Shown here piece by piece: positions 1,840 to 24,324 of a DNA stretch of 64,000 bases. The stretch lies in NCBI RefSeq assembly GCF_027812955.1, contig NZ_JAPYZV010000002.1, positions 1 to 64,000 on the forward strand, read 5' to 3'. Numbering within the stretch: the stretch's first letter is position 1; every line of letters starts with the position of its first letter. Below the pieces are notes generated by a model. The model had not been told where the DNA came from. It was given only the letters and a program-made list of their open reading frames with translations, and did no database searches. The DNA comes from Pedococcus sp. 5OH_020. GTDB lineage: Bacteria; Actinomycetota; Actinomycetes; Actinomycetales; Dermatophilaceae. The translations under genes were made by a program, and so were the position numbers.

Positions 1840-4800
1840 CTACCCGGTGGCGAACACGACATCCACCCAGTAGTTGGTGCCCGTACCCGACTTGTTCGGG
1901 AACCCGCTCGTGCTCCCGTAACGGAAGACGCCGTTACCTCCACTCACCCCGTTCTTCAGGGCGTGCAGGGGTGGGGTGTCCACACCCACGGAGCTGAGGT
2001 ACTTGGCGTCAGCGGCATACCGCCCCACTGGCGCGAAGTACGAGGCGACGTAGACGGTGCCGGCGGTGATCGCCACGGGCGCGGTGAAGCTCACCTGCTG
2101 CCAGCCCGACGCGCTCTCGCTCGTGAACGTGCCCGAAGCAAGCTTCGTGCCGGTCAGCGACCAGAGGTTGCCGATGTGCGTGCCCGTGTTGCCCGCGCCC
2201 TTGAAGAACCGGATCCCGGTGATCCGGCCGCTGACGTCCGCCTTGAACTTGACCCCGACCTCGACGGCCAGGGTGTCCGTACTCGCCGGAGTCGTCGGCG
2301 TCGCGGTGGCGGCCCAGATGGTGCAGGCGGTACACACCACCCCGTTGGGGGTGACCGCGTTGGACGCCACGGAGGTCGGCCCGGTCCCCACTGCGTTCGT
2401 CGCCGAGACGGTGAACGTGTAGGCGGTGCCGTTGGTCAGCCCCGTGACCACGGTCGTCGTGGCCGGCGGGCTACCCGTTACCGTGCTCGGTGTCTGCGCG
2501 GTGGTCCCGACGAAGGGCGTGACGGTGTAGCTCGTGATGGCGCTCCCGCCGTTCGACGGCGCGGTCCACGTCACGGTGGCCGAGCTGTCGCCGGCCGTGG
2601 CCGACACCGCGGTCGGCGCTGCCGGAGCGGTGGGCGCGGGCGGGGCGGCCGGGGTCACGACGTTGGAGGCGGCCGACGCGGCCCCCGTGCCCACCGCGTT
2701 GGTCGCGGACACCTTGAACGTGTACGCCGTGCCGTTCGTCAGGCCGGGCACCGTCGTCGTGGTGGCCGGCGGGCTGCCCGTCACCGTGGTCGCCGCCTGC
2801 GGCGTCGTCCCGATGAACGGTGTCACCGTGTAGGTCGTGATCGCGCTGCCGCCGTCTGACGGAGCTGTCCACGTGACTACGGCCGAGGCGTTGGCCGCAC
2901 TCGCAGTCACGCCGGTCGGTGCGCTGGGTGCAGTGGCAGCACCCGCTGCGAAGACCAGGTCGACCCAGTAGTTCTCCGAGTTGAACGTGTTGACCGGGAA
3001 GAGGCTCGTGGCGCCGTAGGCGTAGACCCCGTTTCCGCCGCTGACGCCGTCCTGCAAGGCGTGCAGCGGAGCGCTGTCCTTCCCCGCGGTGGCGAAGTAG
3101 CCGCTGTCCCCGGAGTAGTGCCCGGCGGGTGCGAAGTACGACGCGACGTAGACGGTGTTCGCAGTGACCGCCACCGGCGAGGTGAAGAGGACCTGCTGCC
3201 AGCCCGTGGCCGTCTCGCTGCTGAAGGTGGCCGAGGCCAGCTTGGTCCCTCCCGCCGACCACAGCGTCCCGATGTGGGTACCGGTGTTCGCAGCCCCCTT
3301 GTAGAACCGGATGCCCTTGACCATCCCGTTGACGTCGGCCCTGAACTTCACTCCGACCTCCACCGACGACGCGTCCGCCTCGTCCACGGTGGTCGGAGTG
3401 GTGGACGCCGGCCAGATCGTGCAGGCGGAGCATCCGCTGGCCACCGGCCTGACCGTGGCCGAGGCGCCCGAGGCCGGGCCGGTGCCCACCGCGTTGGTGG
3501 CGGACACCGTGAACGTGTAGTCCGTCCCGTTGGTCAGCCCGGTGACTGTCGTGCTGGTGGCGGGCGGGCTGCCGCTCACCGCGCTGGTCGTCTGAGCGAC
3601 AGTCCCGACGAACGGCGTGACCGTGTAGCCCGTGATCGGGCTGCCCCCGTTCGCCGGCGCCGTCCAGCTCACCACCGCCGAGCCGTCGCCGGCTGTCGCC
3701 GTCACCCCGCTCGGAGCGGCGGGGACGGTCGCGGGCGCTGGCGTGACGGCGCTGGACGCTGCCGACTCGGGGCCCGCCCCGACGGCGTTCGTCGCCGAGA
3801 CGGTGAACGTGTAGGCCGTGCCGTTCGTCAGCCCTGCGACCGTCGTCGTGGTCACCGGTGGGCTGCCGGTCACCGTCGTCGGCGTCTGGGCAGCCGCCCC
3901 GACATACGGGGTCACGGTGTAGCTGGTGATCGGGCTTCCGCCGTTGGAGGGTGCCGTCCAGCCGACCACTGCCGAGGAGTCGCCTGCAGTGGCCGTCACT
4001 GCGGTCGGTGCGGCCGGCGCCGTGGGCCCTGTGGGTGTGACAGCGCTGGAGGGACTCGAGGCAGGGCCGGTGCCCACAGCGTTCGTCGCGGACACCGTGA
4101 AGGTGTAGGACGTCCCGTTCGTCAGACCGGTGACCGTCGTCGTGGTGGCGGGTGGGCTGCCGGTCACCGTGGAGGGCGACTGAGCGGTGGCTCCGATGAA
4201 GGGCGTCACCGTGTAGCTCGTGACCGCGCTTCCGCCGTTCGCCGGCGCCGTCCAGCTCACCGCGGCCGAACCGTCACCGGCCGTCGCCGCCACGCCGGTC
4301 GGCGCGGCGGGAGCGGTGGGCGCCGTGGGGGTCACCGAGTTCGACGACGCGGAGACGGGGCCAGTGCCCACCGCGTTGGTGGCCGCCACCTTGAAGGTGT
4401 ACGTCGTCCCGTTGGTCAGCCCGGAGATCGTCGTGCTCGTCGCCGGAGGGCTGCCCGAGACGACGGTGGCCGTCTGCGCGGTGGTCCCGATGAACGGGGT
4501 CACGGTGTAGCTCGTGACCGGGCTGCCGCCGTCGGACGGCGCAGTCCAGCTCACCGTGGCGGTGCCTGCTCCGGGGGTCGCCGTGACGGTGCCGGGAGCG
4601 GCCGGAGCCGTCGCAGCCCCAGTGGTGAAGACGACGTCGACCCAGTAGTTCTCCGAGTTGAACGTGTTGGTGGGGAAGATCGTCGTCGTGCCGTAGCGGT
4701 ACACGGCGTTGCCGCCGCTGACTCCGTCCTTGAGCGCGTGCAGCGGCCCGCTGTCCACCCCGGAGGCGGCGAAGTAGCCGCCATCTCCCGCGTAGTGGCC

Positions 4801-7800
4801 GCCAGGGGCGAAGTACGAGGCCACGTAGATGGTGTTGGCCGTGATGGTCACCGGCGTCGCGAACAGTACCTGCTGCCATCCGGAGGACGTCTCCGTGCCG
4901 AACGTGGCCGAGGCGAGCTTCGTCCCGGTCGACGTCCAGAGGCTGCCGATGTGCGTGCCGGTGTTGGTCGTGGCCTTGTAGAAGCGGATGCCCTTGATCT
5001 GCCCGTTGACGTCCGCCTTGAACTTCACGCCCACCTCCACCGACGACGGGTCGCCCTCGTCGGCCGTCTCAGGGGCTGCGGACGACGGCCAGAGCGTGCA
5101 GGCGGCACAGCTCGTGGCGGCCGGGATGACGCCGACCGAGGCGGCCGAGGTGGGCCCGGTCCCCACGGCGTTCGTGGCGGACACGGTGAAGGTGTAGGCC
5201 GTGCCGTTGCTCAGGCCGGTCACCGTGAGAGTCGTGTCCGGGGGGTTGCCACTGACCGGGATCGGGGTCTGCGCGGTGCTGCCCACGAAGGGGGTGACCG
5301 TGTAGCGGGTGATCGCACTGCCGCCGTCGGACGGCGCCGTCCAAGTGACGATCGCGGAGGCGTTGCCCGGGGTGGCGGTCACGCTCGTCGGTGCACCGGG
5401 TGCGGTGGCGGGTCCGGTGTTCGGGTTGAACATCACGTCGACCCAGTAGTTCCGGGCGTTGACGCTGGCCGTCGGGAAGGTGCTGGTGGCGCTGTTCTGG
5501 AACAGTCCGTTCAGCGTGCCGTTGACGTTGCGCAGCGCGTGCAGCGGGGGGCTGTCCACGGTGCCGTTACCGTCGGGCTGCGGCGACGGATGCGGGAACA
5601 TGTACCCCTCGTCCAGCGCTGTGTGACCGGCCGGTGCGAAATACGACGCGACGTACGTCGTGTTCGCGTTGATCGAGACGGGACTGGAGAACGTCGCCTG
5701 CTGCCATCCCGACGTGCTCTCGTTCGCGAAGGTCACCGACGCGAGCTTGGTCCCGGAGGCCGTCCACAGGTTGCCGACGTGGGTCCCGCTGTTGGTGCTC
5801 GCCTTGTAGAAACGGATCCCGGTCAGGCTGCCGGACACGTCCGACTTGAACTTGACGCCCACCTCCACGGCTCCCGCCGTGCCGGAGTCCGCCTTGCCCG
5901 GCGTCGTACCCACTCCCCAGACGGAGCAGGTGCACCCGACGTTGACGGTCGTGCCGGGCGCGGGCGTCTCCAGGTTGCCGCTGTCGTCCACGGCGCGGGA
6001 CCTGATCGTGGTGCTCGGGTTGCCGTGCGCGACCCAGCTGTAGCTCCAGCTGGTGGTGCCGGTGGCAGGGTGCCACGTGGCACCACCGTCGGTGGAGACC
6101 TCGACACCCGCCACGACGCCGCCTGTGTCGGCCGCGGTACCGCTGACGGTCAGCTTGCCGCCGTCACCGATGGTCGCGCCGCCGGCTGGGGAGGTGATGG
6201 TGGAGGTGGGAGCGGTGCTGTCGGTCGACGCGCTCGCGACGGTGAGACCTGTGGTCACGGCGTACGGCTGCGCGCCCATGTCGGCGAAGAGGTTCACGGT
6301 CGCCTGCTGCATGGTGCGGTCAGGGGTCAGCTGAGGGTCCCCGAGGCCCCACGACCACTGCACGGTGCCGGCACCGAAGACCAGCGCTCCGCTGGCAGCG
6401 CGGTAGAGCGAGAGGTGATGGGTCGCCGTGCTACCGGTCTTGACCGTGCTGCCGTAGTCCGTGAAGATCTCCGCCGATGTCGACGTGGTGGAGGACAGGT
6501 CGAGCAGGCCAGCCGGGCGGAAACCGTTGTCGGGTTCCTCGTCCCACTCGTAGCCCAGCGTCCCCAGACCGGAGCCGAGCGTCACCGTCTGCCCGGTCGT
6601 CAGGCCGGCCACGGGAGTGTTGCGCCAGAACCGCAGCTTGGAGTACTGCGCCGGCACCTTGATGTCGGTCGTTCCGGAGTTCACCAGGAACAGCTGCCCG
6701 GTCAGACCGTTCTGTGGCCTGCCACCGTCGGCGGGTGGGCTGAACCGGGGGTCCGCCCAGGTCCCCGTCCAGGTGGGCGGGTCCTTCGGGTCCACCACGC
6801 CGTCGTAGTGGGTCTCCTTGTAGCAGACCAGGGTTCGGTTGGCGGTGGCCGTCCCGTCGACACTCGACTCGGTCCTGGTCTTCCAGAAGACCTCGTTGCC
6901 GCTGAAGAACGCCAGGTCCACCCCGTTGTCGCGGGCCGCCTCGACGTTGGCCCGCTGGGAGCCGGACCAGTACTCGTCGTGACCCACGGAGAGGAAGGCC
7001 TTGTGGTTGGTCAGCAGCGCACCACCGGCGGACGTGCCCACGTCGATCCCCGTCGTATAGGAGAGGTCGTAGCCGTTCTGCTCCAGGAAGCGGATCATCG
7101 GGTACTCGGAGTACATCAGCCAGCTACGACCCTGGTCGTCGTCCGCGGTGTGGAACGGCCGGTTGTACGACACCTTGGCGGCGCCCTTGTATGCCGCCGG
7201 GCTCCCCGGTGGACAGCTCACCGAGCAGGTGTAGAGGCTGTTGCCGCCGTAGGAGTTGTAGGCCTGCCAGGTCTCGTCGGAGGTCTGGACGAGCAGGTCG
7301 GAGTGGCTGGAGTCGTCACGGACGATGAACACCATGTGGCTCTCGGCGACGGCGTCGTCCCGGACCAGATGGGCGATGTAGACGCCGGACACCGCTGTCG
7401 TGGGAACCGTCCAAGACGCCGACACCCCCCAGTTGCCGCAGTCGATGAGCCCCGTCGAGTCCTGGGCCGTCAGGCACGGCGGCTGGGTCTGCGGCAGGGT
7501 GGCGGAGGGCTTGAGGTTCGCGGCGACCTTCCTCGCTCCGTTGCCCTGGTAGTAGCCGAGCCGCAGAATGTCGTAGTGGTACGACCTGGACGGGGTGTTG
7601 ATCTTGAACTGCACCGTCTGCCCGGGCGTGACGCTGATCGCTGTGGCGAAGCCCTGGATGGTCGACGAGCCCGAACCGGTGATGTCCCAGTCACTGGAGG
7701 GCGTCCCCGGCAGGGTGTTCTCACACGCGATGACGCTCACGACGGGGGGTCCACAGGGTCCGGCAGCCAGCGCTTGGCTCGCCTGGAAGACCTGCAAGGG

Positions 7801-7911
7801 CGCCACCACGATGGCCGTGACCGCGACGAGCGCGCTCAGCGTCGTGCGACGGGCGCGCCTCAGGGCGGAGGAGCTCCTGCCTTTGGAGCCGGGCTCGGGC
7901 ATCTCACTCAT
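1840..7911 (-). CDS. Giant secreted multidomain protein: N,N-dimethylformamidase-like + Ig-like + 4x DUF4082 + 7x FnIII
   Basis: 2023 residues from the ATG at 7911, chosen because GGAAA lies about nine bases upstream and a signal peptide follows (RRARRTTLSALVAVTAIVVAP, cleavage near ALAA-G50). An open frame continues upstream to 8397 but lacks protein-like composition. Residues ~60-560 resemble the large subunit of N,N-dimethylformamidase (LRLGYYQGNGAR, SVGHDEYWS, FFSGNEVFWKTR, with an Asp/Glu/His-rich core). An Ig-like domain follows at ~560-655. Then come DUF4082 at ~660-834, one FnIII, DUF4082 at ~937-1097, four FnIII, DUF4082 at ~1490-1655, two FnIII, and a last DUF4082 at ~1860-2023 that ends the protein. 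DUF4082 modules contain VGVKFKADVNG, GIRFYK and YVASYFAP. No LPXTG or transmembrane anchor is visible, so the protein is probably released or held by binding to a polymer. Substrate unknown; the FnIII/DUF4082 pattern suggests attachment to polysaccharide or another surface. Confidence 0.9.
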   Translation of the reverse strand: MSEMPEPGSKGRSSSALRRARRTTLSALVAVTAIVVAPLQVFQASQALAAGPCGPPVVSVIACENTLPGTPSSDWDITGSGSSTIQGFATAISVTPGQTVQFKINTPSRSYHYDILRLGYYQGNGARKVAANLKPSATLPQTQPPCLTAQDSTGLIDCGNWGVSASWTVPTTAVSGVYIAHLVRDDAVAESHMVFIVRDDSSHSDLLVQTSDETWQAYNSYGGNSLYTCSVSCPPGSPAAYKGAAKVSYNRPFHTADDDQGRSWLMYSEYPMIRFLEQNGYDLSYTTGIDVGTSAGGALLTNHKAFLSVGHDEYWSGSQRANVEAARDNGVDLAFFSGNEVFWKTRTESSVDGTATANRTLVCYKETHYDGVVDPKDPPTWTGTWADPRFSPPADGGRPQNGLTGQLFLVNSGTTDIKVPAQYSKLRFWRNTPVAGLTTGQTVTLGSGLGTLGYEWDEEPDNGFRPAGLLDLSSTTSTSAEIFTDYGSTVKTGSTATHHLSLYRAASGALVFGAGTVQWSWGLGDPQLTPDRTMQQATVNLFADMGAQPYAVTTGLTVASASTDSTAPTSTITSPAGGATIGDGGKLTVSGTAADTGGVVAGVEVSTDGGATWHPATGTTSWSYSWVAHGNPSTTIRSRAVDDSGNLETPAPGTTVNVGCTCSVWGVGTTPGKADSGTAGAVEVGVKFKSDVSGSLTGIRFYKASTNSGTHVGNLWTASGTKLASVTFANESTSGWQQATFSSPVSINANTTYVASYFAPAGHTALDEGYMFPHPSPQPDGNGTVDSPPLHALRNVNGTLNGLFQNSATSTFPTASVNARNYWVDVMFNPNTGPATAPGAPTSVTATPGNASAIVTWTAPSDGGSAITRYTVTPFVGSTAQTPIPVSGNPPDTTLTVTGLSNGTAYTFTVSATNAVGTGPTSAASVGVIPAATSCAACTLWPSSAAPETADEGDPSSVEVGVKFKADVNGQIKGIRFYKATTNTGTHIGSLWTSTGTKLASATFGTETSSGWQQVLFATPVTITANTIYVASYFAPGGHYAGDGGYFAASGVDSGPLHALKDGVSGGNAVYRYGTTTIFPTNTFNSENYWVDVVFTTGAATAPAAPGTVTATPGAGTATVSWTAPSDGGSPVTSYTVTPFIGTTAQTATVVSGSPPATSTTISGLTNGTTYTFKVAATNAVGTGPVSASSNSVTPTAPTAPAAPTGVAATAGDGSAAVSWTAPANGGSAVTSYTVTPFIGATAQSPSTVTGSPPATTTTVTGLTNGTSYTFTVSATNAVGTGPASSPSSAVTPTGPTAPAAPTAVTATAGDSSAVVGWTAPSNGGSPITSYTVTPYVGAAAQTPTTVTGSPPVTTTTVAGLTNGTAYTFTVSATNAVGAGPESAASSAVTPAPATVPAAPSGVTATAGDGSAVVSWTAPANGGSPITGYTVTPFVGTVAQTTSAVSGSPPATSTTVTGLTNGTDYTFTVSATNAVGTGPASGASATVRPVASGCSACTIWPASTTPTTVDEADASSVEVGVKFRADVNGMVKGIRFYKGAANTGTHIGTLWSAGGTKLASATFSSETATGWQQVLFTSPVAVTANTVYVASYFAPAGHYSGDSGYFATAGKDSAPLHALQDGVSGGNGVYAYGATSLFPVNTFNSENYWVDLVFAAGAATAPSAPTGVTASAANASAVVTWTAPSDGGSAITTYTVTPFIGTTPQAATTVTGSPPATTTTVPGLTNGTAYTFKVSATNAVGTGAASAASNVVTPAAPPAPTAPAAPTAVSATAGDSSATVTWTAPSNGGSAITSYTVTPFVGTTAQTPSTVTGSPPATTTVVTGLTNGTAYTFTVSATNAVGTGPTSVASNAVTPNGVVCTACTIWAATATPTTPASTDTLAVEVGVKFKADVSGRITGIRFFKGAGNTGTHIGNLWSLTGTKLASGTFTSESASGWQQVSFTAPVAITAGTVYVASYFAPVGRYAADAKYLSSVGVDTPPLHALKNGVSGGNGVFRYGSTSGFPNKSGTGTNYWVDVVFATG
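1843..5940 (-). repeat. Long-period repeats encoding DUF4082 and FnIII modules
   Basis: Near-identical coding blocks recur inside the giant secreted gene: seven units of about 270-290 bases encoding fibronectin-III modules (each with SYTVTPF-G and GTAYTFTVSATNAVGTGP) and four units of about 490 bases encoding DUF4082. The similarity is high enough at DNA level for unequal recombination, so unit number may vary between strains and this stretch is prone to misassembly. Confidence 0.85.
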
Positions 7912-9189: not shown

Positions 9190-10425
9190 TCAGGGGCGGC
9201 GTGCCGCGGCCACGGTCATGAACGGCCACGGCGGCAGGAGCGGCGCAAGGTAGGCGCCCGTCCCGTGGTAAACGTCGGGCCGTCCCGGCCAGACTGCGCC
9301 GCCCTCCCTGAACTCCTGGTCCAGCTCGTTGACCCAGCTCCCCGAGGGATCGAGGAAGTACGCGGCTGCATGGTCCCAGAGCCGGCGGTACCACGCCTCC
9401 CACTCTGGTTCCCCGGTCAGCCCTCGCAACAGCGCCGTTGCCTGGATGCCCTCGCAGACCGGCCAGTGCAGCCGCACCGTCGACACGGGGGTGCTGTCCC
9501 AGTCCACGGTGTACACCAGGCCCTCCCGCCCGTCGACCCCCCACGAGGAGAGAGCCTTCCTGGCCAGCGCCACCGCTGCCCCGAGCAGCCAGTCGGGGGT
9601 GGGCACCCGTGGGCTGGCATGCACGCCGCACAGCAGCCGTGCCCACTCCAGCGAGTGCCCGTACGTCGCGCCGTAGGGTCTGAAGGGATCGGCGGGGTTG
9701 TCCGCGTTGTAGTCGGGAAGCTCGTTCCACCCGGCATCGAAATGCTCGGGGATGAGCCATTCCCGCCGTCGCGCGTGCTGGTTGATGACCCGGTCGCTGA
9801 TGCGCAGCGCGCGAGCATGCCAGAGGTCATCCTCGAGCGCGTCCCCGATCGCCAGGAACGCCTCGACGCCGTGCATGTTCGCGTTCGCTCCGCGGTACGG
9901 CTCCGGGTCACCCCACTCCGCCGAGTACGACTCGCTGAGCGCTCCCTCGTCCTCCTGCCAGAAGTGCCGCTCAACGACCTCACAGGCCTCTGCCGCCAGC
10001 GCCTCGGCGCCCACAGCGCCGGCGGCGACGGCTGATGCGGCAGCCAGGATGATGTGGACATGCTCGTATGCCGACTTCCGGCTACCTGCCCGCAGCTGCG
10101 CGAACCAGCCTCCGTGGGACGTGTCACGGAAGGGACCGGACAGGGACTGGAGGCCGTGTTCCAGGAGCCGCCCGGCCCCGGGGACCCCGAGGACCGAACC
10201 GAGAGCAGCGACGTGCACCATCCGCGCGGTCAACAGGACCGAGGGCTCTCGCCCCGGCATGGGGCGGCCGTCTGCCCCCAGGTACGCGAAGCCACCCTCC
10301 GGCAGGACGCTCGGCAGCACGAACTCGATGAGCCGCCTGAACCTGTCCTCCGCCCATCCGCGGTGCGTCGGCAGCTGCAGCCACGACGTCGCGGACGTGT
10401 CTGTGCCTACGGTTCCGTCGGTCAC
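9190..10425 (-). CDS. AGE-family (N-acylglucosamine 2-epimerase-like) sugar epimerase/isomerase
   Basis: 411 residues, the usual length for the alpha6/alpha6-barrel AGE family, whose members interconvert sugars at C2 (GlcNAc/ManNAc, mannose/fructose, cellobiose/glucosylmannose, sulfoquinovose/sulfofructose). Visible family blocks are GGWFAQL near residue 100, YEHVHIILAAASAVAAG, ANANMHGVEAFLAIGDALED, ATYGHSLEWARLL and GWRRLWDHAAAYFLD-like helices; conserved His and Trp residues of the barrel are present. The GTG start at 10425 overlaps the TGA of the upstream kinase (GTGA), so the two are translationally coupled. It is the last gene of the sugar operon. The family does not by itself define the substrate. 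Confidence 0.85.
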   Translation of the reverse strand: MTDGTVGTDTSATSWLQLPTHRGWAEDRFRRLIEFVLPSVLPEGGFAYLGADGRPMPGREPSVLLTARMVHVAALGSVLGVPGAGRLLEHGLQSLSGPFRDTSHGGWFAQLRAGSRKSAYEHVHIILAAASAVAAGAVGAEALAAEACEVVERHFWQEDEGALSESYSAEWGDPEPYRGANANMHGVEAFLAIGDALEDDLWHARALRISDRVINQHARRREWLIPEHFDAGWNELPDYNADNPADPFRPYGATYGHSLEWARLLCGVHASPRVPTPDWLLGAAVALARKALSSWGVDGREGLVYTVDWDSTPVSTVRLHWPVCEGIQATALLRGLTGEPEWEAWYRRLWDHAAAYFLDPSGSWVNELDQEFREGGAVWPGRPDVYHGTGAYLAPLLPPWPFMTVAAARRP

Positions 10426-11648
10426 GATGCCCTTCTTGTTGCGTCGGTGAGCGTGCGAGGCGAGGCTGCACAGGCTGCCAGGAAGCCCCCGACGAATGTA
10501 TCCCCGAGGCCGACGGTCGTGGGGCTCGCCACGTTGAGCGCTGGGACCGGAACGCAGGCCAGCCGGCCCCCCGCCAGCGCGGTGATGTCGAGGACGAACC
10601 GTGACGTCTGCGTGTCTGCCGGTGCGGCAGCCATGGCACGCATCGTGGCGGCCGACATCGCGTCCCCGTAGGCGTACCGCGCGGTGGCCATCCCGACGCC
10701 GGTGGCCAGGGGCCCGGCGAAGTCCTGCGCCCTCTCACCGAACGCGACCGCCCAGTGCCGCGAATGGACGACCAGCACCGGCACGAGCAGCTCGGCAGTG
10801 ATGGTGCGCAATGCGTCTAGGACCTGAACGGCGTCGAGCAGGTCGACAGGCGAGCCGAGGACCTGGGTCAGCTCCTCGTCGCTCAGGCTGTACACGTCCA
10901 CCAGCGAGGCCATCTGGCTACGCACGACTTCCGCGAATGCCGGCTCGTGGAACCCCGCGTCCTCGTAGAAGACCAGGGTCCCCCGCTGCGAGCCGCGGAC
11001 GCACTCCTCGATGTATGCCAGGCGCTGACGCAGCTGTGGCAGGCTGCGCATGGCGTTCAGCCCCGAGACGAGCAGAACGTCAGCCTCCGCGACGGCGCCC
11101 TTGAGCTCGCTGCTCAGGGCGAGTCTCTCGTTCGCCGGGTCGTTGACGAAGATCAGCCGGTTGGCGCGCGGTGCCACGAGCTCCAGCCGGTCGGTTCGCA
11201 CGCGTGCGCCGGCGGGGTACTGCACGATGAGGTGTGGGTAGGACGGGTCGTTCCCCTCGCCGACCAGGTAGCTGCATCCTTCCGACAGCAGGCCGCGCAC
11301 CTGCTCGTCGGCATACGTGATGTTCACCAGCGCCGGCTGCCCGAGCCGCTCCATCGCGGACGCCGCCCTGACGCAGGTTCCCCCGAGCGACGTCGTGCCG
11401 GAGAACCTGCTGCAGAACTGGTTGATGACCTCCGGCTCCTCGACGCGACGCTCGCCACCGGAGCCGCCCTGGAGGTAGCCGAGGATGCAGGCGACCAGAT
11501 CGCGCTCCGTCTGGATGGCTGTCCGAGAGAAGAGGTCCGCAGGACCGATGCCGTAGTGCTGGGCGAGCTCCCCCAGCACTACGGCGTCCCAGTCGATCTC
11601 CCGGTCGATGGCTGCGCCGAAGCCCAGGACCACGTCTGCGGTGCTCAA
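10422..11648 (-). CDS. Ribokinase-fold sugar kinase resembling the ADP-dependent PFK/GK family
   Basis: 408 residues if started at TTG 11648, which overlaps the aldolase stop (TTGA) and has AAGGGAAGG about 11 bases upstream. The open frame extends to 11978 but that part is antisense-like to nothing and lies inside the aldolase gene. Motifs are GFGAAIDREIDWD near the N-terminus, TSLGGTCVRAA, LLVSGLNAMRS, and TVGLGDTFVGGF with the catalytic base expected at Asp383. The family transfers phosphate to a sugar or sugar phosphate; the SGLNAM block and length favour the ADP-dependent PFK/glucokinase-like branch over short PfkB proteins, but this is not certain. Sitting between an aldolase and an epimerase, it probably phosphorylates the ketose that the aldolase then splits. 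Confidence 0.75.
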   Translation of the reverse strand: MSTADVVLGFGAAIDREIDWDAVVLGELAQHYGIGPADLFSRTAIQTERDLVACILGYLQGGSGGERRVEEPEVINQFCSRFSGTTSLGGTCVRAASAMERLGQPALVNITYADEQVRGLLSEGCSYLVGEGNDPSYPHLIVQYPAGARVRTDRLELVAPRANRLIFVNDPANERLALSSELKGAVAEADVLLVSGLNAMRSLPQLRQRLAYIEECVRGSQRGTLVFYEDAGFHEPAFAEVVRSQMASLVDVYSLSDEELTQVLGSPVDLLDAVQVLDALRTITAELLVPVLVVHSRHWAVAFGERAQDFAGPLATGVGMATARYAYGDAMSAATMRAMAAAPADTQTSRFVLDITALAGGRLACVPVPALNVASPTTVGLGDTFVGGFLAACAASPRTLTDATRRAS

Positions 11649-12505
11649 TACAGGGCTGCCTTCCCTTCGGCGGAGAACAGCTGGATCTTGTGGGCGGCGG
11701 CTGACTTCATGGCCTGCACGCACGGCGGCTGGATGGAGAGCGGCTCGCGAAGCTTGGTGTCGGCCAGCACTTCTCGCATCTTGTCGTGGTAGGCCACCTT
11801 GATGTCGCTCGAGATGTTGATCTTCGCCACGCCATGCTCGACAGACCGGGCGATCTCCTCGTCGGGGTTCCCCGACCCACCGTGCAGCACCAGCGGCACC
11901 GACACCTTCGCCTCGATGCGCTCCAGCAGGTCGATCTTCAGCTCGGGCTTCATCCAGGAGGGGTAGAGGCCGTGGCACGTCCCGATGGCGACGGCCAGGC
12001 TGTCCACCCCGGTCTCCTGGACGAACCGCACGGCGTCCTCGGGGTCCGTGTAGATGATGTCCGCGGTGCCGTCCTCGGCCTCGTCGTCGGTCTTGCCGAT
12101 GGTCCCGAGCTCGCCCTCGACGCTGATGTCCACCGCGTGCGCGGCTTCCACCACCCGCCTGGTGACGGCGACGTTGTCGTCGAACGGAAGCAGGGACGCA
12201 TCGATCATGACCGAGGTGAAGCCGAGCTGGATGGCGCGCAGGGCCTCCTGGTACGTCGCGCCGTGGTCCCAGTGCACGGCGACCGGGATCGTCGTGCGCC
12301 GGGCACGGTGCAGCACCGAAGGCAGGAAGTCCGGACCGACATGGCGGACCTCGTCGGGATGGATCGCCACGATCAGCGGGGACTCCAGCTCCTCGCAGAC
12401 GTCGTAGATGCCGTTCAGCATCGCGTGGTCGCTGATGTTGAACGCGGGGACCGCGAAGCGGTTCTCGCGCGCGATCTGGAGGAGCTTTACTCCGTTGACG
12501 AGCAT
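11645..12505 (-). CDS. Class II (zinc) ketose-bisphosphate aldolase, GatY/KbaY/Fba type
   Basis: 286 residues, full length for the class II family. VHWDHG supplies two His of the active site (H78, H81) and Asp80; VEGELGTIG carries the conserved Glu, VAIGTCHG and LHGGSG supply the later zinc and phosphate-binding residues. The enzyme would split a ketose 1-phosphate or 1,6-bisphosphate to dihydroxyacetone phosphate and an aldehyde. It follows the permeases in the operon and its TGA overlaps the kinase start. Fructose- versus tagatose- or another ketose substrate cannot be told from sequence alone. Confidence 0.88.
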   Translation of the reverse strand: MLVNGVKLLQIARENRFAVPAFNISDHAMLNGIYDVCEELESPLIVAIHPDEVRHVGPDFLPSVLHRARRTTIPVAVHWDHGATYQEALRAIQLGFTSVMIDASLLPFDDNVAVTRRVVEAAHAVDISVEGELGTIGKTDDEAEDGTADIIYTDPEDAVRFVQETGVDSLAVAIGTCHGLYPSWMKPELKIDLLERIEAKVSVPLVLHGGSGNPDEEIARSVEHGVAKINISSDIKVAYHDKMREVLADTKLREPLSIQPPCVQAMKSAAAHKIQLFSAEGKAALY

Positions 12506-12554
12506 GGGGTCCGTCTCTTTCGTGTGGTGATGGTTGGGTTCGGTGAGTGTCAGG

Positions 12555-13394
12555 TCAGCTCTTGACCGCGCCGGCCGTCATGCCGCCGATGAAGAACTTC
12601 TGGAAGAAGACGAAGAGGATGAGCACCGGAATGCTCCCGAGCACGCTCATCGCCATCATCTCGCTCCACTTGTAGGAGTGCTGGCCCATGAGGAGCTGGA
12701 TGCCGATGGGCACCGTCCGCATGTTGTCCGTGCGCGTCAGGGTCAGCGCGAAGAGGTACTCGTTCCAGGCGATCATGAAGGTGTAGACCGCCACCGACAC
12801 GATCCCGGGAAGCGAGATGGGCACGAGGATCCGCCACAGCGCTCCGAAGGAGGTCGTGCCGTCCACGCGGGCCGCTTCGTCGAGCTCTCGCGGCAGCGTG
12901 TTGAAGTAGCCGGTCATCATGACGATGGCGTAGGGGAGCGTGAACACCATGTACGTGAGGATGAGGCCCTGGTAGCTGTTGTAGAGGCGCAGCGCGACGA
13001 TCAGCCCGAAGTACGGGATGAGCAACGTGATCGGTGGCACGGCCTGGATGCCGACGATGACGACGTTGATGGCTCCTTTGAGCCGGAACTCGTACCGGCT
13101 GAACGCATAGGCGGCCAGGATGGCCGTGATGAGCGTCAGCACCGTCACCGACACCGCGACGAAGTAGCTGTTGAGGAAGAACCGCACCTTCACGGGGTCT
13201 GTGAAGACGCTCGTGTACGCCGCGAACGAGAAGGTGCTCGTGACCAGCCGAGGGGGCCACGCGAAGATCTCGGAGTTGTCCTTGAACGAGCTGGACAGCA
13301 TCCACAGGATCGGGAGCCCCGCGAAGCACCCTCCGAGCAGGAGTCCGAAGATCGCGCCCGACTTGAGGGCCACGCTCTGGGAGCGGCTTGTCAT
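12555..13394 (-). CDS. Carbohydrate ABC transporter permease (MalG-like, CUT1)
   Basis: 279 residues with six predicted membrane segments. The C-terminal half carries the EAA loop (ELDEAARVDGTTSFGALWRI-) that contacts the ATPase. The ATG at 13394 begins two bases before the end of the preceding permease gene's stop region (13397), so the two are tightly linked. It forms the channel with the neighbouring permease. No ATP-binding subunit is encoded in this operon; CUT1 importers in actinobacteria commonly share one ATPase (MsiK-type) encoded elsewhere. Confidence 0.92.
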   Translation of the reverse strand: MTSRSQSVALKSGAIFGLLLGGCFAGLPILWMLSSSFKDNSEIFAWPPRLVTSTFSFAAYTSVFTDPVKVRFFLNSYFVAVSVTVLTLITAILAAYAFSRYEFRLKGAINVVIVGIQAVPPITLLIPYFGLIVALRLYNSYQGLILTYMVFTLPYAIVMMTGYFNTLPRELDEAARVDGTTSFGALWRILVPISLPGIVSVAVYTFMIAWNEYLFALTLTRTDNMRTVPIGIQLLMGQHSYKWSEMMAMSVLGSIPVLILFVFFQKFFIGGMTAGAVKS

Positions 13395-13396
13395 GG

Positions 13397-14332
13397 TCAG
13401 TCCCTCGCTCGCTGGTAACGGACGTAGAAGACGGCGAGGACCATCGCCAGGACGAGCAGCACCACGGCGCTCGCGGAGGCCCATGCGAACTCGTACTTGC
13501 TGAACGCCAGCTTGTACGTGTAGGTGCTGAGCATCTCGGTCCGGTCGAGCGGTCCGCCGCCGGTGGTCATCCAGATGAGGGGGAACTGCTGGGAGGTCCA
13601 GATGAGGTCGAGCAGCGCCATGCTGACGATGATCGGTCGCAGGGACGGCAGCGTGACGTGGACGAAGCGTTGCAACCACGAGGCGCCGTCGACTGCCGCG
13701 GCCTCGTAGAGGTCGGCGGAGATGCCCTGGAGACCGGCCAGCAGGCTGACCATGAAGAACGGGTAGCCAGCCCAGATGTTGACGAACGTGACGGCCGGCA
13801 GTGCGAGGTTGAGGTCCGAGAACCAGGCGACCGGCGTGTCGATGAGCCCGACGCCCTGCAGCCCGTAGTTCACCACGCCGTTGGGGTCCAGCAGCAGGCG
13901 CCAGAGGATGGCGATGATCGCCACGGTGAGCAGCCATGGCATCACGAAGATGGTCCGGAACACCGTCTTCGTCCGCTGGCCGAGGAGGGTCGTGTTGAGC
14001 AGCATCGCGAACGCCAGGCCCAGGAGCAGGTGCACGGCCACGCTGACGGATGTGAAGACGGCGGTGTTGCGGGCCGCGGTCCGGAACAGCGGGTCACCCA
14101 GCACGGTGACGTAGTTGTGCCACCCCACGAGCGAGGACGTCGGCGTCATGATGACGTTGTCGAGGAACGAGTACCTGATGACGACTACCACGGGGACGAT
14201 CATCAGGACGATCATCAGGACGATGACCGGCGAGAGGTAGCCGTAGGGGACCAGCCGCCGCAACGGGAGCGGGCGGCGACGGGGAGCCTCCTGGGTCGGA
14301 GCTGCCCGAGTCGGGATCTGGGTTGCAGTCAC
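13397..14332 (-). CDS. Carbohydrate ABC transporter permease (MalF-like, CUT1)
   Basis: 311 residues. The GTG at 14332 has AGGAGG seven bases upstream. A cytoplasmic Arg/Pro-rich head is followed by six predicted membrane helices starting at PYGYLSPVIVLMIVLMIVP. The EAA motif is visible as DLYEAAAVDGASWLQRF near residue 205. It lies between the solute-binding protein and the partner permease, the canonical CUT1 order. Confidence 0.92.
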   Translation of the reverse strand: MTATQIPTRAAPTQEAPRRRPLPLRRLVPYGYLSPVIVLMIVLMIVPVVVVIRYSFLDNVIMTPTSSLVGWHNYVTVLGDPLFRTAARNTAVFTSVSVAVHLLLGLAFAMLLNTTLLGQRTKTVFRTIFVMPWLLTVAIIAILWRLLLDPNGVVNYGLQGVGLIDTPVAWFSDLNLALPAVTFVNIWAGYPFFMVSLLAGLQGISADLYEAAAVDGASWLQRFVHVTLPSLRPIIVSMALLDLIWTSQQFPLIWMTTGGGPLDRTEMLSTYTYKLAFSKYEFAWASASAVVLLVLAMVLAVFYVRYQRARD

Positions 14333-14385
14333 GTGCGCCTCCTGAGCGTTGGGGCGGACCAGCAGGCCCGCCCCACCGTGCTCCG

Positions 14386-15699
14386 TCAGAACTTCTTGGC
14401 CCAGGCGGCCTGGACGTCGGCCAGCGACTTGTCGACGGGCTGGTTGTTCGCCAGCGTCTGCTGGAGCTGCTCGTCGAAGCTGCGCATCAGGTCCTCCGCG
14501 GTCGGCAGCCCGGTGAACTCGTTGGCCGGGACCCCCTTGTTCCAGATGTCGAAGGCGGTCTTGAACTTGGCGTCGGACTTGACGAAGTCGGGGACCGACT
14601 TGGTGTTGCCCGGGAACGCGTTGGCAACCGAGGACAGCTTGGAGTTCACGTCAGTGCTCATGAGGTACTGAACGAGCTTCCACGCCTCCTTCTTGTGCTT
14701 GCTGTTCTCCGCGACCCCGATGCCCCAGGAGGCGTACGGCATGCCGCGCTTGCCGGTGTAGCCGTCCTGCGCCGGGATGGCGGAGATGCTGAACTTCAGC
14801 TTCGGGTTGTTCTCGCGGATCAGCGTGATGTGGGCAAGGGAGTCGATCATCATGCCGACCCGGCCGTTGGTGAACTGCTCCACCTTGTCCTGCTCGTGCA
14901 TCGTGAGGGTTCCCGGTGCGATGGCCTTCGCGTCGTACAGGTCCTTGACGAAGCTGACCGCGCTCTTCACGGAGTCGTTGGTCACGTCGGGCTGGCCGTC
15001 CTTGAGCATCGAGCCGCCAGACGCCCAGACCCACGACATCACGTCGTTCTGGATGCCGTTCGGGGCGTCCTGGGCCAAGGGCAGGATCCACCCGGCGTTC
15101 CCGTTCCCGGTCTTGGAAACGGCCTTCGCCGCGGCGAGGAACTCGCTGCGCGTGGTCGGAGGCTTCGCGACGCCAGCCTTGGCGAGAAGGTCGTCGTTGG
15201 TGAACATGGGGTAGACGAAGTTCACGACGGGAATCATGTAGGTCTGGCCGTCGACCTTGATCTGGCTGGCCAGCTGGGAGTCGTCGTAGCCGGCGTCCTT
15301 CATCAGGGTCGTGAGGTCGGTGACCGCCTTCTGCTTGGCGAGGTCGTTCACCCACGCCCCGTCCAGACCGACGACGTCGGCCAAGGTCTTGGACGCGGCT
15401 CCGGCAACGGTCTGCTGTTGGGTGGAGGCGTACGGCGCGCTGATCAGCTTGACCTTGATGCCGGGGTTCTGCTGCTCGAAGCCGTCCATGATGCCGCGCA
15501 GGGCGCCCTTCGGGAGCTCCGGCTCCCACCACTGCGAGAGCTCGAGCACTACTGAGCCATCGGCCGCCGTGCCCTTCTTGTCCGCCGCGCCGGCCCCCAC
15601 GGGGGAGCCCTCGCCTCCGGCGCACGCAGCGAGGAGGCTCAGCGCCGAAGCAGCCCCAACCACCACCATCACCCGTGAAGCACGACTCTGTGCTCGCAT
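14386..15699 (-). CDS. Sugar-binding lipoprotein of ABC importer (family 1 extracellular solute-binding protein)
   Basis: 437 residues with a lipoprotein signal peptide (VMVVVGAASALSLLAAC, lipid-bearing Cys26). The body shows the family-1 fold: VLELSQWWEPE, FEQQNPGIKVKLI, ADVVGLDGAWVNDLA, GMPYASWGIGVAENSKHK and KEAWKLVQYLMS. It captures the sugar outside the membrane and hands it to the two permeases encoded next. It is the first gene of the operon; GGAG lies upstream of the ATG and a strong promoter at 15759-15787 precedes it. Confidence 0.92.
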   Translation of the reverse strand: MRAQSRASRVMVVVGAASALSLLAACAGGEGSPVGAGAADKKGTAADGSVVLELSQWWEPELPKGALRGIMDGFEQQNPGIKVKLISAPYASTQQQTVAGAASKTLADVVGLDGAWVNDLAKQKAVTDLTTLMKDAGYDDSQLASQIKVDGQTYMIPVVNFVYPMFTNDDLLAKAGVAKPPTTRSEFLAAAKAVSKTGNGNAGWILPLAQDAPNGIQNDVMSWVWASGGSMLKDGQPDVTNDSVKSAVSFVKDLYDAKAIAPGTLTMHEQDKVEQFTNGRVGMMIDSLAHITLIRENNPKLKFSISAIPAQDGYTGKRGMPYASWGIGVAENSKHKKEAWKLVQYLMSTDVNSKLSSVANAFPGNTKSVPDFVKSDAKFKTAFDIWNKGVPANEFTGLPTAEDLMRSFDEQLQQTLANNQPVDKSLADVQAAWAKKF

Positions 15700-15758
15700 T
15701 ACCGCTCCGTTCCGGCGCTATTTCTGCGCTTAGTTGCTGGTTCATGCTGGTCTCTGCG

Positions 15759-15787
15759 AGATTAGCCGTGAAGTTGCGCACTGACAA
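15759..15787 (-). promoter_or_regulatory. Promoter of the sugar operon
   Basis: On the minus strand TTGTCA (15787-15782) and TAATCT (15764-15759) are separated by exactly 17 bases, close to the housekeeping consensus. The predicted transcript starts near 15752, giving a leader of about 50 bases before the solute-binding protein. The divergent DeoR regulator starts 196 bases away and is the natural repressor candidate; I could not identify its operator with confidence. Confidence 0.65.
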
Positions 15788-15970
15788 GGGCTACGGCAAT
15801 GCGTCTCAACCGCCTTGAGGCAGCGGATCCGGAAGGCTGGCGCCGTGCGCATCACCTGTGCCCAGCGGCGTCAGGACGGTCGGATCGCCAGCTGACTGCA
15901 CACTCCACCTCGGTGCAGGATGGGGCGGGAACACGCAGTGATTACGCACAACCGGGCGTCTCCCAGCACG

Positions 15971-15976
15971 TATGCT
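15971..15976 (+). promoter_or_regulatory. -10 hexamer of a leaderless promoter for the DeoR gene
   Basis: TATGCT ends exactly six bases before the ATG at 15983, and no ribosome site fits between. The transcript should start at or within a base of the start codon. A -35 element at the right distance is weak. Confidence 0.55.
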
Positions 15977-15982
15977 CCCCGC

Positions 15983-16798
15983 ATGCAGGAGGAATCGACG
16001 CGGCTGCCGGCAAGCCGGAAGGCAGCGATCGTGGCGCTGGTCGCCGATGCGGGGCAGGTCACGGTGCAGGCCCTCGCGGAGCGGCTCGGCGTCTCGGCGG
16101 ACACGATCCGGCGCGACCTGGACCAGCTCGACGGCGAGGGTCTGGTCATGCGAGCCCGAGGTGGTGCCGTCGACCCGGCCCGCATGCCGCGGATGGATCC
16201 CGGACTCAACACCCGGATCCAGGTGCAGCCCGCCGCCAAGGAACGCATCGGCGCCATTGCAGCGAGCCTGGTGACGGATGGAGACGTCCTCATCATCAAC
16301 GCGGGCACGACGGCGCTGGCCGTCGCTCGTCACCTGCGCGACCATCGGGGGCTGACCATCGCGACGAACAACCTGCGACTCGCGACCGAGATCTCCCCCA
16401 AGTGCTTCCGCGACCTGTACATGTTCGGCGGCGACGTGCGGTATGCGGCCCAGGCGACGATCGGTCCCGTGGCGTTCCCCGTCACGCTCGGCCGGCCCGA
16501 CCTCGACATCCGCTGCGACCTGGCGCTGGTCACCGTGGGCGGCGTGGCCAGCGACGGTGGGTACTCGACGAGCAACCTGGCTGAGGCCGCGATGATGCGC
16601 GAGATGCTGCACAAGGCCGGGAAGGTGGCGATCCTGGCTGACTCCTCGAAGTTCGAGCGCCGGCTGCTCGCGCAGATCGCCCGCTTGGACGCAGCCGACT
16701 ACTTCATCACGGACAAGGAACCGCCGGCCGAGCTCGCCGGTGCCCTTCGGCGCAACGACGTCGACGTCCTGTACGCACCTGCCCCCGACAGGTTGTAG
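15983..16798 (+). CDS. DeoR/GlpR-family transcriptional regulator of the sugar operon
   Basis: 271 residues from ATG 15983. The N-terminal winged helix (ASRKAAIVALVADAGQVTV, LGVSADTIRRDLDQLDGEG) is the DeoR signature. The C-terminal DeoRC sensor domain has the isomerase-like fold with DVLIINAGTTALAVARHL and VTVGGVASDGGYSTSN, where family members bind phosphorylated sugars. An upstream in-frame ATG at 15920 adds 21 non-conserved residues and ignores the leaderless promoter, so I reject it. Divergent to the sugar operon, it most likely represses that operon until the phosphorylated intermediate accumulates; this is inference from arrangement. Confidence 0.88.
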   Translation: MQEESTRLPASRKAAIVALVADAGQVTVQALAERLGVSADTIRRDLDQLDGEGLVMRARGGAVDPARMPRMDPGLNTRIQVQPAAKERIGAIAASLVTDGDVLIINAGTTALAVARHLRDHRGLTIATNNLRLATEISPKCFRDLYMFGGDVRYAAQATIGPVAFPVTLGRPDLDIRCDLALVTVGGVASDGGYSTSNLAEAAMMREMLHKAGKVAILADSSKFERRLLAQIARLDAADYFITDKEPPAELAGALRRNDVDVLYAPAPDRL

Positions 16799-23493: not shown

Positions 23494-24324
23494 TCACGGA
23501 GCGGTGACCTCCCGCAGGGCGGCAAGAACCTTGGTGTCGATCCCGTCCGGAGTGAGACGCATCTCGTAGTTCGCCTCCGAGACCCACCGCTCGAGCGCCG
23601 CCTGCACGTCACCGTCTGCTTCGTGGCCGAGTCGCGCCAGGCGGGCGGCGACCTCCTCGGCCAGCGCACCGGTCAGCGGCTGCACCTCCTCCGGCCGGCC
23701 GAAGAGTAGGTCGTTCATGGTGAGCAGGCGGGCCAGCTCCTCGGGAGCCTGCGGATGGTCGTCGACGCGGACGTCGGCGAGCACACCGCAGGCGTCGTAG
23801 CCGGCCCCGGGCTGGACGGCATACATCGCCGCGCCCTGGCGGCCGCGGGAGTCCCCGCCGGCAGTGTCCCCGGCGAGAAGGGCAGCGAGGAGCCGGTCGG
23901 TCAGCGAGGAACCGGCCGTGGACAGCCAGGCCTCCTCCATGGCGGCCACGACGTCAGCGCCGGTCAGGATGTTCCCCTGGATGGCGTAGCCACCCGTCTC
24001 ATGGCGTCCCGACACTCCACCTGCCCAAGGGAGGCACCCGTCGCCCGTCCAGGTCGCCTGGGAGTCGACCCCCACCACGCCGACCTGCCGGTGTCGGCGA
24101 TCGTCGTCGGGGCCCGTGCACGCCCGGAGAGCCGCCTGCGCGTCCCCTCCGTCGGCGAGCGTGGCGAGCGCCGTCTCGCGGTAGGACACGCGCGCCATGG
24201 CCTGCGTGGCCACCGCGCCGACGCCGAGCCGGGCCTGCGGCACCACGGCACCGACGAAGGGGAACTTGCTGGCCACGGCCACCCCGAAGGAGTCGCCGAG
24301 CTGTCCGACGATGGAGAACGTCAT
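23494..24324 (-). CDS. DUF1028 family protein (Ntn-hydrolase-like fold)
   Basis: 276 residues. TFSIVG, GVAVASKFPFVGAVVP, GVGAVATQA and GYAIQGNILTG are the DUF1028 signature; the family is predicted to have an Ntn-hydrolase-like fold, biochemical role unknown. The C-terminal ~75 residues form an extra helical and acidic region. TACCTT lies exactly six bases before the ATG, so it can be transcribed leaderless on its own although it follows the cation-efflux gene by only 18 bases. It is convergent with the alpha-glucosidase gene across 92 bases. Confidence 0.88.
   Translation of the reverse strand: MTFSIVGQLGDSFGVAVASKFPFVGAVVPQARLGVGAVATQAMARVSYRETALATLADGGDAQAALRACTGPDDDRRHRQVGVVGVDSQATWTGDGCLPWAGGVSGRHETGGYAIQGNILTGADVVAAMEEAWLSTAGSSLTDRLLAALLAGDTAGGDSRGRQGAAMYAVQPGAGYDACGVLADVRVDDHPQAPEELARLLTMNDLLFGRPEEVQPLTGALAEEVAARLARLGHEADGDVQAALERWVSEANYEMRLTPDGIDTKVLAALREVTAP

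Follow-up and report, generated by a model that had tools for sequence, protein, structure and literature searches.

Which sugar is degraded, and by which reactions, with an operon that combines an AGE-superfamily isomerase, a kinase of the ADP-dependent glucokinase/phosphofructokinase family, and a class II aldolase? This question is raised by positions 9190-16798 of a stretch of 64,000 nucleotides from Pedococcus sp. 5OH_020 (contig NZ_JAPYZV010000002.1, positions 1 to 64,000; hereafter the window), which belongs to a genome of 4.43 Mb in 32 contigs. The reading favored here, for which the case is about evenly balanced, is an inducible route for a free sugar, in which an aldose would be isomerized to a ketose, the ketose phosphorylated to a ketose 1-phosphate, and this compound cleaved into dihydroxyacetone phosphate (DHAP) and a free aldehyde. 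A preliminary description of the DNA had predicted a sugar operon with GTGA and TTGA overlaps. Open reading frames (ORFs) and Pfam matches confirm the operon, with seven genes, and both overlaps, the TTG start of the kinase gene sitting within ...TATTGA at the aldolase stop and the GTG start of the AGE gene within ...TCGTGA at the kinase stop.

The kinase was used for a single-protein search of 396 genomes of the order and 396 genomes drawn across the phylum. It is present in 35 of the 396 order genomes and in 17 of 109 genera, two of the 35 being fragments (genomes G687 and G547), and in 1 of the 396 phylum-wide genomes, which is the window genome itself. A named-collection scan with an alignment of 31 kinases yielded 255 tblastn-confirmed stretches; the best 80 of these 255 were read and comprise 78 actinobacterial stretches and 2 from metagenome-assembled genomes of Anaerolineae. 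No relatives of the kinase were found on the viral contigs or plasmids searched. The merged set holds 110 loci (L numbers) with a kinase ORF and 106 distinct kinases, almost all of them from actinobacteria, after exclusion of five loci without a called kinase ORF (L063, L064, L085, L088, L111). In L063 (G687) the kinase match is only an 82-residue fragment and a phosphomannose isomerase (PMI)-like cupin is kept, perhaps as the remnant of a decayed operon.

The aldolase gene accompanies the kinase gene in all 106 distinct kinase loci. A solute-binding protein (SBP) and two permeases are encoded in at least 102 of them and a DeoR-family regulator in at least 97, both counts being lower bounds because short contigs and a simple ORF caller lose genes. 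The recurring order, a divergent DeoR gene followed by SBP, permease, permease, aldolase, and kinase genes, is repeated far beyond chance. Median identities over 90 complete loci are 49% for the kinase, 68% for the aldolase, 73% for permease 2, and 65% for the SBP. Since most of the SBPs to which the window protein shows this similarity come from loci without an AGE gene, the window SBP and those of its relatives may well share a ligand. No paper describing the operon was found in searches of the open-access literature, in line with the preliminary description, according to which the pathway may be undescribed. The comparisons made here draw on parts of PMC8873060, PMC9594981, PMC12890257, PMC7948494, PMC6333288, PMC7762179, PMC12421959, PMC2684688, and PMC4718643.

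The genome encodes a single PF04587 protein, the kinase (10422-11648, minus strand, 408 amino acids), with an ADP_PFK_GK match of 85.9 bits above the cut-off of 27. The first 22 Foldseek hits of its AlphaFold model (predicted local distance difference test score, pLDDT, 92.7) are all ADP-dependent sugar kinases, with template modeling (TM) scores of up to 0.81 for the glucokinases of T. litoralis and P. furiosus, and ATP-type ribokinase-fold hits follow at about 0.4-0.5. Sequence, profile, and predicted fold thus agree with the family that the enzyme had been said to resemble. Specificity residues were mapped via a HMMER alignment to 5k27, in which the spacings fit. According to PMC7948494, the fructose 6-phosphate residues of the ancestral enzyme AncMsPFK are Lys179, Asn181, and Arg212, and glucokinase has His at 181. 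Among the 106 distinct kinases, the phosphate ligand Lys179 (position 137) is never Lys (D/Y/H/N/E), the phosphate ligand Arg212 corresponds to Asp170 in 105 and to Asn in 1, and Asn181 corresponds to His139, the glucokinase-type residue, in all 106. Glu90 is kept as Glu66 in all 102 rows with a letter at this position, and the catalytic Asp383 of the GXGD motif is kept in 106/106. The diagnostic residues, as far as sequence can tell, are of the glucokinase type and not of the fructose-6-phosphate type. A fructose-6-phosphate kinase is therefore disfavored, as none of the positions of Lys179, Asn181, and Arg212 is kept, and the glucokinase-type site argues for an unphosphorylated sugar as substrate. 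In the proposed route, this sugar would be the free ketose, phosphorylated probably at C1. The residues fix neither the hydroxy group that is phosphorylated nor the nucleotide donor.

A glucokinase-type site also fits the main rival, an ordinary entry of hexoses via hexose 6-phosphates. In this case, an O6-specific hexokinase would act on mannose or fructose, the slot isomerase on mannose/fructose or on mannose 6-phosphate/fructose 6-phosphate, and a housekeeping phosphofructokinase and an extra fructose bisphosphate (FBP) aldolase would follow. This is possible but not probable, and the aldolase (11645-12505, minus strand, 286 amino acids) bears on it in both directions. The protein belongs to PF01116 (304.6 bits), as expected from its earlier placement in class II, and it passes the ketose-bisphosphate aldolase model TIGR00167 (261.3 bits, cut-off 215.6), as an extra FBP aldolase would. 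It remains below the cut-off of the FBP-aldolase equivalog TIGR01859 (269.6 versus 343 bits) and likewise below that of the tagatose bisphosphate aldolase equivalog; its nearest curated NCBIfam model, PRK08185, carries no named function (382.9 bits, cut-off 405). Residues were counted in 101 distinct main copies; eight rows with no called kinase next to the aldolase were set apart. The zinc-binding His residues and the catalytic Asp are invariant in 101/101. A family motif, His49-Pro50-x-Glu52, is equally invariant at its three named positions, with Asp51 in 96 of 101, and is unlike the T-P-G-T of GatY/KbaY. Position 263 is I/V/L in 94 rows, Arg in 3, Gln in 2, and Glu in 2; in FBP aldolases, Arg259/331 presumably bind the charged group of the substrate. 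Further points against the entry of hexoses via 6-phosphates are that the window genome encodes three other PF01116 aldolases, that no phosphofructokinase is encoded within the operon, and that aldolase and kinase occur together in 106 of 106 loci and are both duplicated in L034, L037, and L045. In these loci (L034: 7362-17983) and in L106, which represents the same contig as L034, a second aldolase (Gly49, Lys51) adjoins the first and is accompanied by a second ADP-family kinase and a short-chain dehydrogenase/reductase (SDR). The joint duplication fits a paired function of kinase and aldolase. A sulfatase is encoded just beyond the DeoR gene in L034 and L106. This version of the operon may serve a sulfated or a second sugar. 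In the favored route to a ketose 1-phosphate, the aldolase would split this compound into DHAP and an unphosphorylated aldehyde.

The slot behind the kinase gene is occupied in the window by the AGE gene (9190-10425, minus strand, 411 amino acids, PF07221 with 313.1 bits). Across the 106 loci, it contains a cupin gene in 55 (one partial, L107), an AGE gene in 7, neither in 41, and a contig end in 3. This tally is based on called ORFs and on a tblastn re-check of loci first labeled empty. The re-check located uncalled cupin genes directly behind the kinase gene in L044 and L127 and part of one in L107; L075 and L144, which count among the 41, have a cupin gene at a distance, elsewhere in the stretch. 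The cupin gene overlaps the kinase stop by 4 bases in 27 of the 44 rows in which it directly follows. Because the slot holds a cupin gene or nothing in most relatives, the core of the operon consists of transporter, aldolase, and kinase, and the AGE is exchangeable. The isomerase-kinase-aldolase logic read from the window in the preliminary description is supported, as are the kinase family and the aldolase class, whereas the AGE, found in 7 of 106 loci, is not a signature. The comparison of neighborhoods suggested there recovered a transporter-aldolase-kinase core over 106 loci, with the transporter in at least 102, of which the AGE is not a constant part. On a kinase tree built by a quick method and containing long branches, the distribution of the AGE requires at least 2 changes, forced by starred branches, and that of the cupin at least 7. 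The operon AGEs of Phycicoccus and Terrabacter form one clade (100/100) in the AGE tree, apart from the operon AGEs of Propionibacteriaceae (L093, L117), both on long branches. In the favored route, the slot isomerase would interconvert free aldose and ketose, as an AGE in the window and as a PMI-like cupin in most relatives; in loci with an empty slot, the isomerase may be encoded elsewhere, or none may be needed if the ketose itself is imported.

Additional genes are found near the slot in some relatives. Cellulomonas-like genomes (L076, L084, and others) encode a DUF4432 protein of unknown function, placed either between the kinase and cupin genes or after the latter, and an RbsD/FucU-family gene, identified by Pfam, overlaps the kinase gene in L095 (7673-8095), with an ORF of similar size at the same place in L103 and a look-alike, judged by eye, in L105. 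An aldose 1-epimerase gene lies between the DeoR and SBP genes in L075 (4399-5394). Two of these families are known to include mutarotases, and the accessory genes, if they encode such enzymes, would fit the handling of free aldoses. In L079 (11308-13148, Promicromonospora), which has no cupin or AGE gene at this place, a xylose-isomerase-like TIM barrel protein and a GFO/IDH oxidoreductase are encoded behind the kinase.

By its PF07221 match, three His, Arg55, Asn172, and Glu251, the window AGE falls into the YihS/mannose isomerase subfamily. The YihS residues R55, Y111, N172, H176, H248, E251, W316, E320, and H383 are kept, and H49, W51, R238, Q362, and Q379 are replaced by S, L, P, N, and P; of these, R238, Q362, and Q379 presumably bind the sulfonate in YihS. 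Among 19 other AGEs of the order in the alignment, Pro at 379 occurs in 9 and Asn at 362 in none; identity with the window AGE is 40-47% for these 19 proteins and 38% for YihS. The D-mannose isomerase model NF051846 is its best curated model (445.5 bits), but the score is below the equivalog cut-off of 600 bits, which is passed in 0 of 198 order genomes. The protein thus is not YihS-like at the replaced positions but also represents a clade of its own, and is at most a candidate mannose isomerase. AGE enzymes of the YihS subfamily isomerize free sugars, and roles of their catalytic His residues are given in PMC7762179.

The residues of the AGE also bear on the idea that the operon encodes a variant of the sulfoglycolytic Embden-Meyerhof-Parnas (sulfo-EMP) pathway, in which sulfoquinovose or a relative would be degraded to sulfolactaldehyde. 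The step logic is the same: sulfo-EMP in E. coli and Arthrobacter (YihS-YihV-YihT) also combines an AGE isomerase, here 38% identical, a ribokinase-fold kinase, an aldolase that forms DHAP and a C3 aldehyde, and an adjoining regulator. The Arthrobacter clusters likewise have ABC import and no sulfoquinovosidase, and sulfo-EMP2 of Bacillus urumqiensis (SqvD-SqiK-SqiA) uses a class II PF01116 aldolase (PMC9594981). However, the window kinase belongs to the ADP-dependent family instead of PfkB, and its aldolase to PF01116 instead of PF01791, whereas the Arthrobacter clusters are described with YihS, YihV, and YihT homologs and a sulfolactaldehyde dehydrogenase; in sulfo-EMP2, a system of Firmicutes, SqvD is a FucI homolog and SqiK belongs to PF00365 (PMC9594981). 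The window operon contains no redox gene, whether for a sulfolactaldehyde reductase or dehydrogenase or any other, the rest of the genome not having been searched for such an enzyme, and in relatives the only labeled redox genes downstream are the SDR gene (L034/L106, L037, L045) and the GFO/IDH gene (L079), unlabeled ORFs having been only sampled. The window SBP is distant from SmoF, the sulfoquinovosyl-glycerol binder (48.7 bits). The operon encodes no sulfoquinovosidase, and the YihQ match in the genome is only partial (235 of 678 residues, 32% identical). A YihV query over 33 genomes was uninformative, as each gave several matches (best 90.8 bits), presumably general PfkB-type kinases. The AGE replacements, the operon's lack of an aldehyde enzyme, and a YihQ match that is only partial make sulfoquinovose degradation highly improbable. 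Earlier statements that a sulfoquinovosidase and a semialdehyde reductase or dehydrogenase are missing thus hold for the operon. Kinase and aldolase had also been said to differ from those of sulfoglycolysis; the class II aldolase, known from sulfo-EMP2, does not by itself set the operon apart, and the kinase family and the AGE residues do so better.

The cupin is a relative of PMI, as entry of hexoses via 6-phosphates would have it: the first 17 Foldseek hits of its model (pLDDT 90.9) are PMIs. The cupin of L033, however, scores only 50.2 bits with TIGR00218 (cut-off 116.2), and this model has no match in the window genome. In 58 rows, near-identical ones included, Lys86 is kept in 57 and His99, Lys132, Glu134, His255, and Glu264 are kept in all. 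In contrast, Arg274 is replaced by L/M/I in 58/58 rows, Lys280 by G/A/S, and Gln97 by His in 58/58; in PMI, Arg274 and Lys280 presumably bind the charged group of the substrate. Seven of the residues compared, Arg274 among them, are residues mutated in Salmonella PMI according to the titles of PDB entries. The missing Arg274 and Gln97 argue against a 6-phosphate substrate, as a B. subtilis PMI with Lys in place of Gln was inactive with mannose 6-phosphate until Gln was restored (PMC4718643). The residues of the kinase, those of the cupin, and the activity of AGE enzymes on free sugars each suggest that the substrate lacks a 6-phosphate, with which the aldolase motif is compatible.

If a free sugar is used, D-mannose/D-fructose is the likeliest candidate pair, as the nearest characterized relatives of both isomerase types include mannose/fructose enzymes. 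Fructose 1-phosphate would then be cleaved into DHAP and D-glyceraldehyde. An uncommon sugar, as suggested in the preliminary description, is not borne out, mannose/fructose being at least as likely. The same mechanism with a pentose (D-lyxose/D-xylulose), a 6-deoxyhexose, or another rare ketose is rather unlikely. Lyxose/xylulose is among the substrates of YihS-type AGEs (PMC7762179), and the RbsD/FucU-family gene of L095, its putative counterparts in L103 and L105, as well as the sulfatase, SDR, and second kinase-aldolase pair of some relatives would suit such sugars. On the other hand, the operon lacks a widely recurring redox gene specific for an aldehyde, and the relatedness of both isomerases to mannose/fructose enzymes speaks for the common pair.

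Several points weigh against a ketose 1-phosphate route. Glucokinases of the ADP-dependent family phosphorylate O6 and are not known to act at O1. In the HXE motif of the 106 kinases, Glu229 is invariant, but the His is replaced by Y/F/V/L/I/M/C (position 227), and in the NXXE motif, Glu259 is invariant and Asn256 present in 101, with Ser in the 5 kinases of the window clade; the changes in both motifs make the nucleotide donor uncertain. The aldolase motif presumably lines the distal pocket, and position 263 is presumably that of the FBP-aldolase Arg for the 6-phosphate, which 3 of 101 rows contain. Neither isomerase is encoded beside the kinase in 41 loci. A YihS-type AGE is present in 27 of 32 kinase-bearing genomes tested (base rate in the order, 115 of 198), the window genome having the operon copy only; an AGE elsewhere occurs in 12 of 12 genomes without an in-slot isomerase versus 13 of 18 with a cupin, a pattern in favor of the route that is, however, not significant (Fisher p 0.066) in a statistic that ignores relatedness. 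In the two AGE-slot genomes among the 32, the AGE sits in the slot. Finally, the operon has no glyceraldehyde-handling gene and the window genome no Dak1 match. In L048, L060 (4646-7022), and L062, the operon is followed by genes for DhaK and DhaL homologs, in L060 together with an EIIA-man/HPr protein of the DhaM kind. DhaK as support for a triokinase was set aside, as these loci are one small group and a phosphotransferase system-type subunit stands beside DhaK in L060.

The remaining genes would supply uptake and control. The SBP (14386-15699, PF01547), permease 1 (13397-14332, PF00528), and permease 2 (12555-13394, PF00528), all encoded on the minus strand, would import the sugar with a shared ATPase, as no ATPase gene is found within the operon. 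The divergent DeoR-type regulator (15983-16798, plus strand, PF00455/PF08220) has an in-frame ATG at 15920 as an alternative start. A putative promoter/operator region is placed at 15700-15982 by its intergenic position, in which no DeoR operator was found. The recurring 'promoter motif' CTCCCACC was rejected, as it encodes the QWWEPEL stretch near the SBP start in the window and in those other relatives whose sequence was read; this stretch is seen again in many relatives. Elsewhere in the window, an ORF of about 2020 residues resembling a secreted repeat protein (1840-7902, minus strand), a DUF1028 protein with a putative peptidoglycan-binding C-terminal domain (23494-24324, minus strand), and an Entner-Doudoroff pair by family (KDPG aldolase, PF01081, and IlvD/Edd dehydratase, PF00920; 32991-35527, minus strand) are encoded. 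An ORF of about 1650 residues is located near the AGE gene in L065 and L066, both from Terrabacter.

The operon resembles known systems in parts. Archaeal ADP-dependent glucokinases and phosphofructokinases share fold, catalytic Asp motif, and sugar-site residues with the window kinase, which is bacterial, about 50 residues shorter, lacks the HXE His, and belongs to a catabolic operon with an aldolase. The AGE-family D-mannose isomerase (NF051846; P. geniculata) shares with the window AGE the three catalytic His of the YihS subfamily, whereas the latter forms its own clade on a long stem, with YihS Trp51 replaced by Leu and Gln362 by Asn. E. coli YdjH-YdjI (octuluronate kinase, class II aldolase) likewise pairs a kinase with a PF01116-type aldolase annotated for ketose 1-phosphate, but YdjH aligns with the window kinase over short stretches only (26 bits), and YdjI, 37% identical to the window aldolase, lacks the His49-Pro50-x-Glu52 motif. 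In vertebrate fructolysis, ketohexokinase, aldolase B, and triokinase convert fructose via fructose 1-phosphate to DHAP and glyceraldehyde. The proposed chemistry is alike, with a different aldolase class and kinase family and no Dak1 match in the window genome. A dedicated actinobacterial fructolysis-like route with an ADP-using ketohexokinase from the family of archaeal glucokinases, a specialized class II aldolase that releases DHAP and free glyceraldehyde, and an interchangeable isomerase (AGE or cupin) feeding in mannose is a tentative and, in this full form, unlikely proposal.

The operon gives a kinase family that is mainly familiar from the glycolysis of archaea a defined place in bacterial catabolism, and unrelated isomerases are seen to exchange in one slot of a pathway. 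It thereby poses a concrete substrate question for a gene set that occurs in numerous genera of actinobacteria. Should the kinase use ADP as donor, sugar activation in a catabolic operon of bacteria would be driven by ADP.

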